A stretch of 64,000 nt of DNA from Geothrix sp. (GTDB taxonomy: Bacteria; Acidobacteriota; Holophagae; Holophagales; Holophagaceae), in NCBI RefSeq assembly GCF_030219325.1, contig NZ_CP126625.1, positions 1,972,857-2,036,856 of the forward strand, given 5' to 3'. The translations under genes were made by a program, and so were the position numbers. Position 1 is the stretch's first letter. Every line of letters begins with the position of its first letter. Below the pieces are notes generated by a model. That model was not told the DNA's origin. It saw only the letters and a program-made list of their open reading frames with translations, and did not search any database. Shown here one piece after another: positions 42,139-49,152 of the stretch.

Positions 42139-43041
42139 ATGCGGATCAACACGCTCGACGAGCTGCTCCTTGCCGTGAAGGATCGCCCCCGCAAGCGCCT
42201 GGTGGTGGCCTGGGCCAACGACGCCCACACCCTGGAGGCGGTGAACGCCGCCGTGGAGGCGGGCCTGGTGGAGGCCTTCCTGGTGGGTGACGAGCCGGTC
42301 ATGGCCAGGGGCTGCCAGGAGCTGGGCCTCCCGCGGGAGCGCTTCCGCATGACCCACGCCGCCACGGATCGCGATGCCGCAGCCAAGGCCGTGGCCATGG
42401 TCCGCTCGGGCGAGGCCGACCTGCTCATGAAGGGCCTGCTCAGCACGGAGCTGTACATGCGGGCCATCCTGAACAAGGAGCAGGGCCTCCTGGATCCCGG
42501 CGCCATCCTCAGCCACGTGACCGTGATGGAGCACCCGGGCCATCCCAAGCTCCTCATCGCCGGCGACGTGGCCGTGATCCCCGAACCCGAGTTCAAGGAG
42601 AAGGTGGCCATCCTGGGCTACCTGGTGAAGACCGCCAAGGCGCTGGGGATCGAGACGCCCAAGGTCGCGGTGCTGTCGGCCTCGGAGCAGGTGCAACCCA
42701 AGCTGCGCTCCAGCGCCGAGGCGGCCCTGCTCTCGAAGATGGCGGACCGGGGCCAGATCAAGGGAGCCTTCGTGGACGGCCCCATGGCCCTGGATGGTGC
42801 CATCGATCCCGATTCCGCCCGCATCAAGAGCATGGGCGGCCCCGTGGCCGGGGACGCGGACTGCCTGCTCTTCCCGAACCTCGAGGCGGGCAACACCTTC
42901 TACAAGGCCGGCACCAAGCTGGGCGGCGCCGAGATCGCCGCCGTGGTGGCCGGGGCCCGGGTCCCCTGCGTCCTCAGCAGCCGCGGCGACAGCGCCAAGA
43001 CCAAGCTCAGCTCCATCGCCCTGGCGGCCCTCCTCGCCTAG
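42139..43041 (+). CDS. ptb: Phosphate butyryl/acetyltransferase
   Basis: 300 residues of the PTA_PTB family, transferring an acyl group between CoA and phosphate. Motifs: LVVAWANDAHTLEA start, DLLMKGLLSTELYMRAIL near 95-112, and DGPMALDGAID...GDADCLLFPNLEAGNTFYKAGT toward the end, closest to butyryl-type enzymes. Ends directly abutting the convergent gene at 43042. Confidence 0.88.
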   Translation: MRINTLDELLLAVKDRPRKRLVVAWANDAHTLEAVNAAVEAGLVEAFLVGDEPVMARGCQELGLPRERFRMTHAATDRDAAAKAVAMVRSGEADLLMKGLLSTELYMRAILNKEQGLLDPGAILSHVTVMEHPGHPKLLIAGDVAVIPEPEFKEKVAILGYLVKTAKALGIETPKVAVLSASEQVQPKLRSSAEAALLSKMADRGQIKGAFVDGPMALDGAIDPDSARIKSMGGPVAGDADCLLFPNLEAGNTFYKAGTKLGGAEIAAVVAGARVPCVLSSRGDSAKTKLSSIALAALLA

Positions 43042-43869
43042 CTATTTCCCCTCGGCCTTCAGCTCCGTGAAGGCGAAGGTCATGCGCTCCTTCCGGCCCT
43101 GGGTCCAGACCGTGACGTCCAGGTTGGCCGGCACGGGCATCCCGTCGAGCGCCTGGTTCACGATGAGCACCTTCAGGGTCATCGCGGCGCCGCCGTTCTG
43201 GGGCGTGAAGTCGGCGTCGTAGCCGGTGAGCACGAAGGTGCCCGCCTGCCGGTCGAAGGTGGGACGGATGGCGGCGTGGAAGGCCGGTGCGATCACCTTC
43301 ATCTCCGTCACCGCGAAGGTGCGGTCCAGGCGCAGATCCACGCTGACGCCGCCCCGTTCCTCCCAGTTCAGCTGGAAGTGGGTGCCCAGGTCCTCGGCCT
43401 TGCAGGGCGCGCCGGAGGGCGGAATGGGAGAGTGCACCATGAAGGGTGCCCAGGTCTGGAAGAAGCCGTTGATGGCCTGCTCCACGCCCTGGTTGACCTG
43501 GTTCAGGCCGCTGGTGGCGCCTTCGTTGGGGGCATCCACGAAGTTGTGGGTGACCTGGGACTGGCCGTGGGCGCCCACCCGCCCCTCGTAGCGGATCTGC
43601 TTCAGGAGCTTCACCGCGGCCTCGTAGCCGGCGGGGTTGGTCTTGGCCAGCTCCACCAGCGTCAGGGGCCAGTCGGGGGTGACGGCAAAGCGGTAGCCGC
43701 GGAAGCCCTTGTCCGACAGGCCGACATAGGCCCCGCGGGCCTGGCTCAGGATGGCCTCGGGCTGGACCTTCGCCTTGGCGGGAGGCTCAGCCTGGGCGGC
43801 CTTCAAGGTCGGCGCGGCGAGGCCGACGAAGCCGGTGAGAAGCAGGGTGGCGAAGCGGCATCGCATCAC
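43042..43869 (-). CDS. Exported protein of unknown function, 275 aa
   Basis: Signal peptide about residues 1-24 (ATLLLTGFVGLAAPTLKA). The mature part is rich in beta strands with no recognisable motif; one Cys pair is not apparent. Lies between ptb and the Ptb-Buk fusion on the minus strand, and may be cotranscribed downstream of the fusion gene. Function unknown. Confidence 0.65.
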   Translation of the reverse strand: MMRCRFATLLLTGFVGLAAPTLKAAQAEPPAKAKVQPEAILSQARGAYVGLSDKGFRGYRFAVTPDWPLTLVELAKTNPAGYEAAVKLLKQIRYEGRVGAHGQSQVTHNFVDAPNEGATSGLNQVNQGVEQAINGFFQTWAPFMVHSPIPPSGAPCKAEDLGTHFQLNWEERGGVSVDLRLDRTFAVTEMKVIAPAFHAAIRPTFDRQAGTFVLTGYDADFTPQNGGAAMTLKVLIVNQALDGMPVPANLDVTVWTQGRKERMTFAFTELKAEGK

Positions 43870-43971
43870 GGCATTCCTCCAGGGACACAGCAGGACGGGG
43901 ATCCGACCAGTCTAGACGGTCGGGGACCGGACCGCCGGATCCTTGGTGGTCCGGCTCCGACCAGGGGTGCC

Positions 43972-46179
43972 TCAGGCCGGCGGGTAGTCGCGGGCGGTCT
44001 CCCGTCCGGAGAGCACGCGCAGGGCGCCCTTGGCGAGGGCGGCCATCTCGTTCTCGCCGGGGTAGACCTTGACGCCGCAGCCCAGGGCCGCGGTGAGGCG
44101 ATCCAGCTCGGCGACCAGCTTCGCGGAGCGGGCCATGCCGCCGGTCAGCAGGATGGCGTCGATGGGCTCGCCTTCGAAGGCCGGCGCCAGAGCCGTGATG
44201 GCCTTGGCAATCTGGTAGGTCAGGGCTGCGTAGACCAGGCCGGCCTCGGCATCCCCGGCCTCCACGCGGCGCTCCACCTCGCGCATGTCGGCGGTGCCCA
44301 GCAGGTCGATCATGCCGCCGCGGCCCTTGTTGAGAAGCTTCAGCTCGGCCTTGGTGTACTTGCCGGAGAAGCAGAGGTCGATGAGCTGGCCCGGCGGCAG
44401 GCTGCCCGAACGCTGGGGCGAGAAGGGTCCCTCCCCGTCCAGGCCGTTGTTCACGTCGATGTAGCGGCCCTTGCGGTGGGCCCCCACGGTGATGCCGCCG
44501 CCCATGTGGGCCACGATCACGTTGACGCGCTCGTAGAAGGTCTCGTGCTCCTCGGCGTAGCGCCGGGCGGTGGCGATCTGGTTGAGGGCATGGCTGATCA
44601 CCCGGCGGGGCAGCTCCTTCAGGCCCGTGATCTTGACCTTGGGATCCGCCTCATCCACCACGACCGGATCCACGATGTAGGCGGGCTTGCCCGTGCCCGC
44701 CACCAGCTCGGAGGCGATGAGGGCGCCGAGATTGCTGGCGTGCTCGCCGCGCTTCCCGGCCATCAGGTCCTCCAGCATGGGGGCCCCGACATTCCAGGTG
44801 CCGTGCGGGATGGGGCGCAGCAGGCCACCGCGGCCGGCCACGGCGTCCAGATCCTCCTGGCTGAGCCCCTTCCCGGCGAGGAAGCGCAGCACGGCCTCCT
44901 TGCGGAACGTGAACTGCTCCGTGATCGGGCGGCCCTCGAAGGGCTTCATCTCTTCGGCGGTGTGCTGGATCTCCTCGGTGCAGCGCTCCTCGTCGCCCTC
45001 GAAGACGGAGGTCTTGGTGGAGGTGGAGCCGGGATTCAGCACCAGCACGCGGTGGCGGCGGAAGAAGGTGTCCTTCGGGGTGCGCTTCCACTCGCCGTAG
45101 TGATGCAGGCGCATGACCGAGGCCTTCACGGCCAGGCGGATGTCCTCGGGCGTGCAGTCCATGGGCAGGTCCACGCCCTGGAACCAGAGGCCGAACATCA
45201 CGGGGAATTTCTTCGCATCCGGGAAGCGGGTGGAATACAGGTGGTAGAGCAGGTTCCCCATGTCCAGGTTGGGGCAGACGATGACGTTGGGGCCGCCCTC
45301 CCAGGGCAGGCCGTCGGCGTGGTAGAGGTCTGCCGAGCGGCGCGACAGCGCCACGCTCACCTTGATCTCGCCACGGATGTGGATGGTGCCGTACCGGGCG
45401 GCGTGCTTGACGCGCTCGGCCAGGATGCCGGGCACCAGGTCCGCCGCCTGGCGCACCAGCTCCGGCGAGGGGCCCTCGTCGCTGCCGCGGTTGGAGTAGG
45501 AGACCATGGCGCAGCGGATCTCGGGAAGCACGTCCTCGGGGATCAGATCCCGCGCCACGGCGCAGGTGCCTACGGCCACCTCGGCCAGGGTGCGCGGGTT
45601 CATGGAGGCGTTCACGCCCACGTCGCCGAACACCACGATGTTGTGGGGATAGACGTCATCCGGATGGGAGTCCGGCAGCACGAACACGCCCGCCTCGCAG
45701 GCCACGCTGCGCTGGGCCAGCAGCTCCACCATGGGCCGGAAGAAGGCCTTGGGCTCGTGGATGGCGCCGCCCACCACCATGTCGGCATGACCCAGCTTCA
45801 CGGCCCAGATGCCGAAGAGACAGGGATCGGCCATGCTGCCCCGCACCTCCTCCAGGCTCTGGTAGCGACCATGGCTGTGCCCCCACTCCACGCAGGCCGT
45901 GGCGAAAGTGGTCAGGAGGTCGGGGCGAGAGGCCGGGTCGACGAAGGCACTCTCGGACAGGGTGTAGGCGACCCGGTCCTCGCCCAGGTGCGCGAGCTGG
46001 CTGGCCGCCAGGGCCCGCACCTCTGCTTCGGGTGCGAGGAAGACGGGGCGGATGAAGCGCGCCAGGAAGCACACCGCCTCCAGCGTGCGGGGATCCAGGG
46101 CCTCGGGAAACACCACCGTGGGGCGGTTCCGGGGCTCCGCCAGCAGGCGGCTGTCGAGGGAGGCTTCGATGTCAAACAT
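43972..46179 (-). CDS. Phosphate acyltransferase-butyrate kinase fusion
   Basis: 735 residues combining two enzymes usually encoded separately. Residues about 15-365: PTA_PTB domain (FPEALDPRTLEAV, PDSHPDDVYPHNIVVFGDVGVN, GGPNVIVCPNLDMGNLLYHLY). Residues about 375-730: butyrate kinase of the acetokinase fold (VLVLNPGSTSTKTSVFEGDE, TWNVGAPMLEDLM, AHMGGGITVGAHRKGRYIDVNN, LLTGGMARS). Together they could turn acyl-CoA into acyl phosphate and then into carboxylate plus ATP. Continuous frame with no stop. Confidence 0.9.
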   Translation of the reverse strand: MFDIEASLDSRLLAEPRNRPTVVFPEALDPRTLEAVCFLARFIRPVFLAPEAEVRALAASQLAHLGEDRVAYTLSESAFVDPASRPDLLTTFATACVEWGHSHGRYQSLEEVRGSMADPCLFGIWAVKLGHADMVVGGAIHEPKAFFRPMVELLAQRSVACEAGVFVLPDSHPDDVYPHNIVVFGDVGVNASMNPRTLAEVAVGTCAVARDLIPEDVLPEIRCAMVSYSNRGSDEGPSPELVRQAADLVPGILAERVKHAARYGTIHIRGEIKVSVALSRRSADLYHADGLPWEGGPNVIVCPNLDMGNLLYHLYSTRFPDAKKFPVMFGLWFQGVDLPMDCTPEDIRLAVKASVMRLHHYGEWKRTPKDTFFRRHRVLVLNPGSTSTKTSVFEGDEERCTEEIQHTAEEMKPFEGRPITEQFTFRKEAVLRFLAGKGLSQEDLDAVAGRGGLLRPIPHGTWNVGAPMLEDLMAGKRGEHASNLGALIASELVAGTGKPAYIVDPVVVDEADPKVKITGLKELPRRVISHALNQIATARRYAEEHETFYERVNVIVAHMGGGITVGAHRKGRYIDVNNGLDGEGPFSPQRSGSLPPGQLIDLCFSGKYTKAELKLLNKGRGGMIDLLGTADMREVERRVEAGDAEAGLVYAALTYQIAKAITALAPAFEGEPIDAILLTGGMARSAKLVAELDRLTAALGCGVKVYPGENEMAALAKGALRVLSGRETARDYPPA

Positions 46180-46266
46180 GGGACTCCAAGACCATTCAGG
46201 GGCCTTCGCCCGCCGAGTCTATCAGGGCTCCGCAGCCGCTTTTCTACCTGATGGTCATATGTGACC

Positions 46267-46890
46267 TCAGCGGTCTGCGCTGCCCACGGATTCGACCCAG
46301 ACCACCTCGCAGGAACCATCCCCGGTATCCGTCCGCGTGAGGCTGCTGACCCAGTGCCAGCCGTCCGGCCCATCGGCCCGCACCAGCTGCCCGCGGAGCG
46401 CCACGAGCTGGCCGGGCCGCACGGACAGCAGGCGCCGTTCCACCGCCGCCGTCGCCGGGATCAGGTGCATGTTCGCCGCGTGGATCATGACTTCGGAGGC
46501 GGGGATCGACAGATGCTCGGCACTCCAGAAGAACCAGCGGTCCCGCTGGGTGACGGTGATGTCCTGGAGGACCCGGGAATCGGACATGGGGCCCCAGCCC
46601 AGTGCGAAGTCCACCGGCGACAGCTCTGCGGGGCGATCGAAGCGGTAGCGTTCGACGCCCAGCACCCGGGCCCGGAGCTCGAAGCGGGCGAGGGGTGTGA
46701 TCGTGTGGTTCCGGAAGGTCCACGGGGCCGCGGGTTCCGCGGCGGTCTGCAGGGGCTCCTCCGGCGCCAATACGCCAGCGGGCTGGACGAGGGGACGCCC
46801 CTGCCACCACCAGAGGCCCATGCCGACGGCGGCCACGCCCAGGGCCAGCAGTCCCCAGCGTTCCCTCAGCCACTCCCGGAGATCGTCCAT
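46267..46890 (-). CDS. Membrane-anchored hypothetical protein, 207 aa
   Basis: One transmembrane helix near residues 10-27 (GLLALGVAAVGMGLWWW), then a Pro/Ala linker and a periplasmic beta-rich domain (TFRNHTITPLARFELRARVLG, VRPGQLVALRGQLVRADGPDGWHW). No family named. It is divergent from the SPFH gene, with 225 bp between them. Confidence 0.7.
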   Translation of the reverse strand: MDDLREWLRERWGLLALGVAAVGMGLWWWQGRPLVQPAGVLAPEEPLQTAAEPAAPWTFRNHTITPLARFELRARVLGVERYRFDRPAELSPVDFALGWGPMSDSRVLQDITVTQRDRWFFWSAEHLSIPASEVMIHAANMHLIPATAAVERRLLSVRPGQLVALRGQLVRADGPDGWHWVSSLTRTDTGDGSCEVVWVESVGSADR

Positions 46891-47115: not shown

Positions 47116-49152
47116 ATGGACCTCACCTGGCTTTCCGCCAACCCCGGCCTGACCCTGCTTGCCCTGCTCGGCACCGCCTTCGCGGTGCTCCTGCTCAGCA
47201 AGTGGATCCGCTACATCCCCAACAACCGCGTGGGCATCGTCGAGAAGCTCATCAGCGGCAAGGGCTCGGTCAAGACCGGCCTCATCGCCCTGGGCGGCGA
47301 GGCGGGCTTCCAGCCCCAGCTCCTGCGCGGCGGCTGGCACCTGCTCACGCCCTTCCAGTACCGCATCCACAAGATGCCCCTGGTGACCATCCCCCAGGGC
47401 AAGATCGGCTACATCTTCGCCCGGGACGGCAAGGACCTGCCGCCCACCCAGACCCTGGCCAGCAACAGCCACGGGGCTGACTTCCAGGATCTGGTGGCCT
47501 TCCTGCAGAACGGCGGCCAGAAGGGACCCCAGCGGCAGATCCTCCGCGAGGGCATCTATGCCATCAACCTGGCCCAGTTCGTGGTGCTCACCGAAGACCA
47601 GCTCTACTACCTGCCCCTGGACAAGAGCGAGCTGGAGACCTTCCAGAAGATGAGCGCCATCATCGCGGAGCGCGCCGGCTGGCGGCCCGTCATCATCCGC
47701 GGCGCGGACGACGCCGTGGGCATCGTCACCGTGCATGACGGCCCGAGCCTCCAGAGCGGCGAGATCATCGCCTCCACCGTGGGCGAGGATCCCCAGAAGG
47801 CCTCGACCTACCACAACAACTTCCAGGACGCCGACAAGTTCCTGGTGGCCGGGGGCCAGCGGGGACGCCAGTACCAGGTGCTGGTGGAAGGCACCTACTA
47901 CATCAACCGGCTCTTCGCGACCGTGGAGATGATTCCCAAGACCGTGGTGGAAGTGGGCACCGTGGGCGTGGTGGTGAGCTACACCGGCGCCATCGGCGCC
48001 GACATCAGCGGCCAGGAGTACCGCCACGGCGAGCTGGTCACCAACGGCCAGCGCGGCGTCTGGAGCGATCCCCTGCTGCCGGGCAAGTACGCCTTCAACA
48101 CCTACGCCGGCAAGGTGCTCATGGTGCCGACCACGAATTTCATCCTGAAATGGACGAAGGGCGAGGTGGGCAGCCACAAGTTCGACGAGAACCTCTCCGA
48201 AGTGAGCCTCATCACCAAGGACGCCTTCGAGCCGAACCTGCCCCTCAGCGTCGTGGTGCACATCGACTACCGCAAGGCGCCCCTGGTCATCCAGCGCTTC
48301 GGCGACATCAAGAAGCTGGTGGAGCAGACCCTCGATCCCATGGTCAGCGCCTACTTCAAGAACGTGGGCCAGACCCGCACCCTCATCCAGCTCATCCAGG
48401 ACCGCAGCGCCATCCAGGAGCTGAGCGGCGTCCAGATGAAGGAGAAATTCACCCAGTACAACCTGGAACTCCAGGAAGTGCTCATCGGCACGCCCACCAG
48501 CGGCGCCCCCGGTGGCCAGATCGAGCAGATCCTCGTGCAGCTCCGCAGCCGCCAGATCGCCAATGAGCAGGTGGAGACCTACAGCCGCCAGGAGAACGCC
48601 GCCGTCAAGGAACGGGAGCTCCGGGAAGCCGAGGCCAAGGCCAAGCAGCAGACCATGCTCACAGAATCTGCCATCAGCATCGAGGTGCAGAGCAACCAGG
48701 GCAAGGCCGACTACGCCAAGGCCCAGCAGCAGGCGGCGCAGATCCAGACCCTCGCCGGCGCCGAAGCCGAGAAGGTGCGCCTCATGGGCGAGGGCGAGGC
48801 CAAGCGCATCAAGGTCATGGCGGAAGCCCAGGCCGAGCAGGCCGCCCGGGTGGGCATCGCCCAGGCCATGGCCATCGAAGAGCAGGTGCGAGCCTACGGC
48901 GGCCCGCAGTTCCAGCTGGTGCAGCAGGTCATGAACCGCTTCGCCGAGGCCATCGAGAAGTCCCAGGTGGACGTCGTTCCCAAGATCCACATGGGTGGTG
49001 GCGACAAGGGCGGCGGCAGCCTCATCGAAAGCCTGCTGGGCCTCCTGCTCAGTGAGAAGGCTGGTCAGCTGGCGGGTGTGGTACCCACCACCGCACCCAA
49101 TGCCGAGGCCGAAGCCCTGAAAGCGGCGCTGCGGCAGAACCTGACGAAATAG
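47116..49152 (+). CDS. SPFH/flotillin-like membrane protein
   Basis: 678 residues: N-terminal TM (about 13-32, LALLGTAFAVLLLSKWI), then YIPNNRVGIVEKLISG, the beginning of an SPFH/Band 7 fold. The core (to about 460) includes VPTTNFILKW; an Ala/Glu/Gln-rich coiled coil (about 480-600, ERELREAEAKAKQQTML) follows and a Gly-rich end. Flotillin-like scaffold of membrane microdomains; partner unknown. Followed by a hairpin. Confidence 0.88.
   Translation: MDLTWLSANPGLTLLALLGTAFAVLLLSKWIRYIPNNRVGIVEKLISGKGSVKTGLIALGGEAGFQPQLLRGGWHLLTPFQYRIHKMPLVTIPQGKIGYIFARDGKDLPPTQTLASNSHGADFQDLVAFLQNGGQKGPQRQILREGIYAINLAQFVVLTEDQLYYLPLDKSELETFQKMSAIIAERAGWRPVIIRGADDAVGIVTVHDGPSLQSGEIIASTVGEDPQKASTYHNNFQDADKFLVAGGQRGRQYQVLVEGTYYINRLFATVEMIPKTVVEVGTVGVVVSYTGAIGADISGQEYRHGELVTNGQRGVWSDPLLPGKYAFNTYAGKVLMVPTTNFILKWTKGEVGSHKFDENLSEVSLITKDAFEPNLPLSVVVHIDYRKAPLVIQRFGDIKKLVEQTLDPMVSAYFKNVGQTRTLIQLIQDRSAIQELSGVQMKEKFTQYNLELQEVLIGTPTSGAPGGQIEQILVQLRSRQIANEQVETYSRQENAAVKERELREAEAKAKQQTMLTESAISIEVQSNQGKADYAKAQQQAAQIQTLAGAEAEKVRLMGEGEAKRIKVMAEAQAEQAARVGIAQAMAIEEQVRAYGGPQFQLVQQVMNRFAEAIEKSQVDVVPKIHMGGGDKGGGSLIESLLGLLLSEKAGQLAGVVPTTAPNAEAEALKAALRQNLTK

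Follow-up and report, generated by a model that had tools for sequence, protein, structure and literature searches.

Does a gene that joins a phosphate acyltransferase-type domain to a butyrate kinase in a single chain encode a bifunctional enzyme that passes acyl phosphate from one half to the other? The question is raised by positions 43972-46179 (minus strand) of the window, i.e. the 64,000-nucleotide stretch of Geothrix DNA analysed here. The gene looks like a textbook fusion for channelling and an annotation would call its product bifunctional, as the first-pass annotation of this DNA did, whereas the analysis of the active sites indicates that one half is a pseudoenzyme. From sequence comparison and by analogy with MaeB, a malic enzyme with a PTA regulatory domain, we think it likely that the product is an active acyl kinase of the butyrate type whose N-terminal extension, a dead Pta-type domain, acts as a regulatory sensor, the acyl phosphate being made by a separate Ptb.

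One open frame with two domains

ORF reading and translation give a single open frame of 735 codons at 43972-46179 (minus strand), with the stop codon at 43972-43974, and the earlier claim of an uninterrupted single chain holds. Residues 18-347 (45139-46128, minus strand) match the Pfam family PTA_PTB with 104.6 bits (cut-off 24), and residues 376-732 (43984-45054, minus strand) match the NCBIfam butyrate kinase model NF002834 with 451 bits (cut-off 222) and TIGR02707 with 440 bits (cut-off 289). The inter-domain linker comprises residues 358-375 (45055-45108, minus strand), as seen in an alignment of 53 fusions. An AF2 model of the fusion has a mean pLDDT of 85 and a pTM of 0.85, with stretches of pLDDT <50 that include parts of kinase residues 581-604. 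In this model the N-terminal half aligns to Pta 1qzt (Z 35.2) and to the MaeB PTA domain (Z up to 35.2), and the kinase half to solved butyrate kinases (Z 36-38).

An antisense open frame of 991 aa (43276-46251, plus strand) covers the fusion gene and is probably a high-GC shadow frame. The frames flanking the gene, 43042-43869 (minus strand, 275 aa) and 46267-46890 (minus strand, 207 aa), gave no match in searches of Pfam and NCBIfam. Next to the locus, the product of 47116-49152 (plus strand, 678 aa) contains a Band_7 (SPFH) domain according to Pfam.

Conservation and distribution of the fusion

A search with one genome taken from each species yielded 259 relatives, of which the best 80 loci were used. 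Among these 80, 75 contain the full-length frame with the same joint (residues ~358-375) at 49-96% identity, so that the check for the fusion in relatives, proposed in the first-pass annotation, was positive. As the identical joint occurs in 75 other loci, a sequencing error at the joint near residue 370 is ruled out. Four of the remaining five loci are cut by contig ends, and one (L070) has an in-frame TGA; this single codon (L070:7381-7383, from a metagenome bin) lies at fusion residue 461.

The record titles of the fusion loci name Geothrix, other Holophagae, other Acidobacteria, Krumholzibacteriia, Myxococcota, Elusimicrobia, Spirochaetales, Eisenbacteria, Zixibacteriota and others; a large part of these records are metagenome bins and may be mislabelled. 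The fusion is found in 54 of the 77 genomes of the window's order, contig-cut pieces counted. In an even sample of the phylum, a whole-length match (read from the match table) occurs in 34 of 396 genomes and any match at 1e-60 in 96, the rest being mostly kinase-only proteins. A match to residues 1-93 in one genome (G072) was rejected as a standalone N-terminal domain, since a contig end cuts it. Our search of open-access papers found none that names the fusion.

The most divergent fusions (L085:6001-8160 and L086:2146-4305, from records labelled UBP14 and Zixibacteriota) have an N-terminal domain only 34% identical to that of the window and a kinase half that is 66-67% identical; their N-terminal domain has lost the SYSNRGSDEG loop and Arg133. 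In a related genus (G051, L159:2308-3414; G050, L160) there is a standalone butyrate kinase without the N-terminal domain, 54-55% identical to the fused one, with a Pta nearby on the other strand (a canonical Pta at L159).

The kinase half

The assignment of the C-terminal half as a butyrate kinase was borne out. The profile scores lie far above the cut-offs. With E. coli AckA and T. maritima Buk2 as references, each catalytic position examined is conserved in the window fusion and in all 75 loci, apart from one Lys that 4 of these loci replace by Arg (Lys in the other 71). The positions checked are Asn, Ser, Lys, Arg91, Asp148, His180, Arg241 and Glu384 (M. thermophila Ack numbering), which we take to bind the nucleotide or to act in catalysis in acetate kinase. 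Profile and catalytic residues are both those of a butyrate kinase, and, as part of the reading preferred here as a whole, this half is probably an active butyrate-type acyl kinase.

Catalytic residues of the N-terminal half

M. thermophila Pta uses Ser309, Arg310 and Asp316 for catalysis, according to a table in PMC10194888. The same paper gives the activity left in T. pallidum Pta after mutation of the corresponding residues as 0.30% (S314A), 0.07% (R315A) and 14.3% (D321A); Ptb enzymes, as described in PMC9706017, likewise conserve Ser279-Arg280 (C. acetobutylicum numbering). We counted the corresponding residues in 76 fusions, i.e. the window and the 75 full-length loci, in M. thermophila Pta numbering. 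Ser309 is found in none of the 76 (Ala in 39, Pro in 36, Asp in 1) and Arg310 in 6 (Met in 56, others in 14), the window fusion having Pro339 and Met340 instead, while Asp316 is kept in all 76 (Asp346 in the window). The remodelled catalytic loop, residues 337-346 (45142-45171, minus strand), reads DLPMDCTPED in the window, as compared to DLSRGCSxED in active Pta. A separate alignment shows both Ser and Arg in every reference enzyme (20 Pta and 7 Ptb), whereas of 12 PTA domains of MaeB two have the Ser and four the Arg.

Family profile and fold of the N-terminal half are those of a phosphate acetyl/butyryltransferase, and the catalytic Asp316 is present; the catalytic pair Ser309-Arg310 is missing. 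The equivalog model of active Pta, TIGR00651 (pta), scores 97.9 bits, i.e. below its cut-off of 311, and TIGR02706 (ptb) is not among the profile matches listed for the fusion. What is found is a Pta-family domain without catalytic residues that is fused to another enzyme, the combination expected of a MaeB-like sensor.

A bifunctional enzyme, whose N-terminal half makes acyl phosphate from acyl-CoA and hands it to the kinase half, would fit the consecutive nature of the two reactions, the Pta fold (Z 35 to M. thermophila Pta), the strong conservation of the N-terminal domain and the retention of Asp316 and of Arg133 (74 of 76). Nevertheless, we regard it as very unlikely, given that the Ser-Arg pair, invariant in the Pta and Ptb references, is gone from the fusions, that single Ala mutants at these positions retain just the 0.30% and 0.07% of activity given in PMC10194888, and that all 43 fusion genomes behind the diverse loci contain a separate Pta or Ptb. 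The first-pass annotation had itself named missing catalytic residues as the finding that would speak against its proposal, and a working phosphate acyltransferase in the N-terminal half is not supported. As the catalytic Ser and Arg are missing, there is no longer a basis for the ideas built on it, namely that acyl phosphate is channelled from one half to the other and that the two copies of the acyltransferase serve different acyl substrates.

The changes extend to the CoA pocket, where Gln244 is replaced by Lys (74 of 76), Lys257 by Tyr (72), Lys283 by His (60), Ser128 by Pro (65) and Gly311 by Asp (74), Asn279 being kept in 73 and Arg133 in 74. Two alignments place a gap differently in the Arg87 column, so that the alignment is uncertain there and the column was not used for any conclusion. 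Since pocket positions are replaced by new conserved residues, including a set in the old active-site cleft (Lys273, Tyr286, His313, Asp341 and Asp346, window numbering), the pocket looks re-used rather than decayed. CoA binding at the canonical site appears doubtful because CoA-contacting lysines are lost, and, with Asp316 and Arg133 retained, the N-terminal domain may support a weak or different transfer reaction.

A separate Ptb accompanies the fusion

The window contains a separate ptb-type phosphotransacylase gene at 42139-43041 (plus strand), the presumed catalytic partner of the fusion. Its product matches PTA_PTB with 168 bits and has an intact Ser-Arg motif (SSRGD), the best NCBIfam hits being phosphate butyryltransferase models at scores below their cut-offs (302 of 399 bits and 295 of 410). 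The first-pass annotation was right about a standalone ptb nearby and wrong about its distance, given as 3 kb: the gap to the fusion is 930 bp and holds one 275-aa frame. The window's genome (3.73 Mb) has two members of the acetate/butyrate kinase family, AckA and the fusion gene, and four of the PTA_PTB family, i.e. Pta, a protein of MaeB length, the standalone Ptb and the fusion gene; it thus appears to hold two pairs, Pta/AckA and Ptb/fusion.

Of the 80 fusion genes, 21 are followed immediately, within 300 bp, by a Ptb relative in the same orientation and 27 have one in convergent orientation, and in two loci (L055 and L066) the neighbour is a Pta relative. In 22 loci whose flanks extend for 1 kb or more, no Ptb or Pta relative was found beside the fusion; the sequence of 8 others ends within 1 kb of it. 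The fusion genomes searched carry a Ptb or Pta elsewhere, including those where none adjoins the fusion, and Ptb is present in 40 of the 43 genomes mentioned above. The Ser-Arg motif is kept in 45 of 48 rows of Ptb neighbours, the other three ending before the motif; of three rows gathered as Pta neighbours, two are true Pta with Ser-Arg and one (L056) is the fusion itself. A comparison of neighbourhoods for a clue to the acyl substrate, based on crude gene calls, gave nothing widely shared beyond ptb/Pta, other recurring neighbours looking like synteny of close relatives.

Within the window's genus (47 genomes), 36 have fusion and Ptb, 2 the fusion only, none Ptb only and 9 neither; the corresponding numbers for the order (77 genomes) are 48, 6, 3 and 20. 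This co-occurrence is consistent with a supply of acyl phosphate to the kinase by Ptb, and it is weakened as independent evidence by linkage and shared ancestry. For the nine genus-mates without fusion and ptb (G017, G026, G038-G041, G043, G045 and G048), no replacement butyrate kinase was seen among the matches listed. Joint loss and the neighbour pattern in the genus could go back to one deletion of linked genes.

Origin of the N-terminal domain and selection

In a phylogenetic tree the N-terminal domains of the fusions form one clade (support 100/100) on the Pta side, and the clades of MaeB PTA domains (99/99) and of Ptb (100/100) are both separate from it. With 2.9 changes per column the stem of the fusion clade is long, and since the tree program flagged long branches, the exact place of this clade among Pta is unsure. 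The description of the N-terminal half as Ptb-type thus has to be given up, and, as the domain lies on the Pta side with Ptb apart, an origin by loss of the ptb stop codon in a ptb-buk operon is ruled out; such read-through is also contradicted by the persistence of ptb as a separate gene. Direct descent from the PTA domains of MaeB is unsupported, the clades being separate. In three genomes of the same class (L170, L171 and L172), ptb and buk form unfused in-frame pairs, parted only by the stop codon and 9 nt, and the Ptb in these pairs is their own, with the Ser-Arg motif.

The N-terminal domain is under purifying selection. Among the 11 closest loci measured, dN/dS is 0.08-0.25 for the N-terminal domain and 0.09-0.24 for the kinase, and for five more distant loci 0.32-0.39 and 0.27-0.32, respectively, values that come from a simple Nei-Gojobori count in which the high G+C content makes dS unsure. 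A functionless, decaying remnant might be suspected from the lost catalytic residues, the far stronger divergence of the N-terminal domain than of the kinase half in L085 and L086, and the standalone kinase of the related genus. We consider it hardly credible in view of the low dN/dS among close relatives, the many invariant N-domain positions across the 53 aligned fusions and the presence of the domain in all 75 full-length loci, a count that the full-length query favours.

The linker is conserved as well: W364, T367, P368, D370, T371, F372 and F373 are found in 49-51 of the 53 aligned fusions, and the mean share of the commonest residue is 0.70 in the linker, 0.68 in the N-terminal and 0.76 in the C-terminal domain. 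A linker as conserved as the domains suggests that the N-terminal and kinase domains are coupled. It would also suit a purely structural scaffold that determines how the kinase oligomerises or docks Ptb/Pta, and that senses no ligand, in line with ptb being the immediate partner gene in many loci and with the description in PMC7902834 of Pta domains as dimers and MaeB PTA domains as a hexamer. A pure scaffold would not need the distinct conserved residues of the cleft, though, and L055 and L066 have Pta as partner gene in place of the Ptb that is found in most loci, so we judge this explanation unlikely.

A probable regulatory role of the N-terminal domain

The loss of catalytic residues makes a regulatory sensor more plausible than a second enzyme, and, judged by analogy, the N-terminal domain most likely senses a metabolite and regulates the butyrate kinase. 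The product of the separate ptb would make acyl phosphate, which the kinase half would use to phosphorylate ADP, yielding acid and ATP; the reaction could also run backwards. The N-terminal domain would bind a metabolite in the old CoA/acyl cleft, and the conserved linker might relay this binding into a changed activity or assembly of the kinase, as in MaeB. We infer that the N-terminal domain is inactive in practice (from its residues) and that it binds a ligand (by analogy), and likewise the direction in which it may regulate; acyl-CoA or CoA is a first guess for the ligand.

If the N-terminal domain does regulate the kinase, acyl-phosphate-dependent ATP synthesis would be under a control resembling that of malic enzyme in Geothrix and in the organisms behind the records labelled Krumholzibacteriia, Myxococcota, Elusimicrobia and Spirochaetales. 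To our knowledge, such control by a PTA domain is otherwise known only from malic enzyme. More tentatively, the fusions may be undescribed, widespread metabolite-gated acyl kinases, in which a Pta domain was rebuilt as a sensor with a new conserved pocket (the five cleft residues named above), possibly for a ligand other than a CoA ester, and controls ATP formation from acyl phosphates. Pta domains would then have become regulatory modules at least twice independently, in MaeB and in this kinase. We offer this as a possibility that we would not yet call likely.

Comparison with known systems

The kinase half resembles T. maritima Buk2 (1saz/1x9j), with ~43-47% identity in structural alignments, Z 36-37 and the catalytic residues kept, but known Buk enzymes are standalone, whereas the fusion has an additional N-terminal domain of 370 residues. 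That domain shares fold (Z 35.2, 26% identity) and family profile with M. thermophila Pta (1qzt), yet lacks the catalytic Ser309 and Arg310. As in a ptb-buk operon, the same two gene families are adjacent; the joined domain, however, is Pta-type and not the Ptb of such an operon, and the ptb of the fusion loci stays a separate gene, usually downstream or convergent.

The closest parallel in principle is MaeB, i.e. malic enzyme with a C-terminal PTA regulatory domain. According to PMC7902834 and PMC12704298, the PTA domains of MaeB lack PTA activity and bind and sense acetyl-CoA; the acetyl-CoA-bound domain inhibits the fused malic enzyme (PMC7902834), and the acetyl-CoA binding sites differ between clades (PMC12704298). 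In both systems an unrelated metabolic enzyme carries a fused Pta-family domain that lacks the catalytic Ser, and the fold of the fusion's domain aligns to MaeB PTA structures with Z up to 35. In contrast to MaeB, the partner is a butyrate kinase and the PTA domain is N-terminal, the pocket has other substitutions (Asp316 is kept in 17 of 17 fusions as compared to 5 of 12 MaeB, and Gly311 is replaced by Asp in the fusions), and the fusion domains lie outside the MaeB clade (100/100 versus 99/99). By analogy, the likeness to MaeB would thus be one of working principle, not of clade membership.
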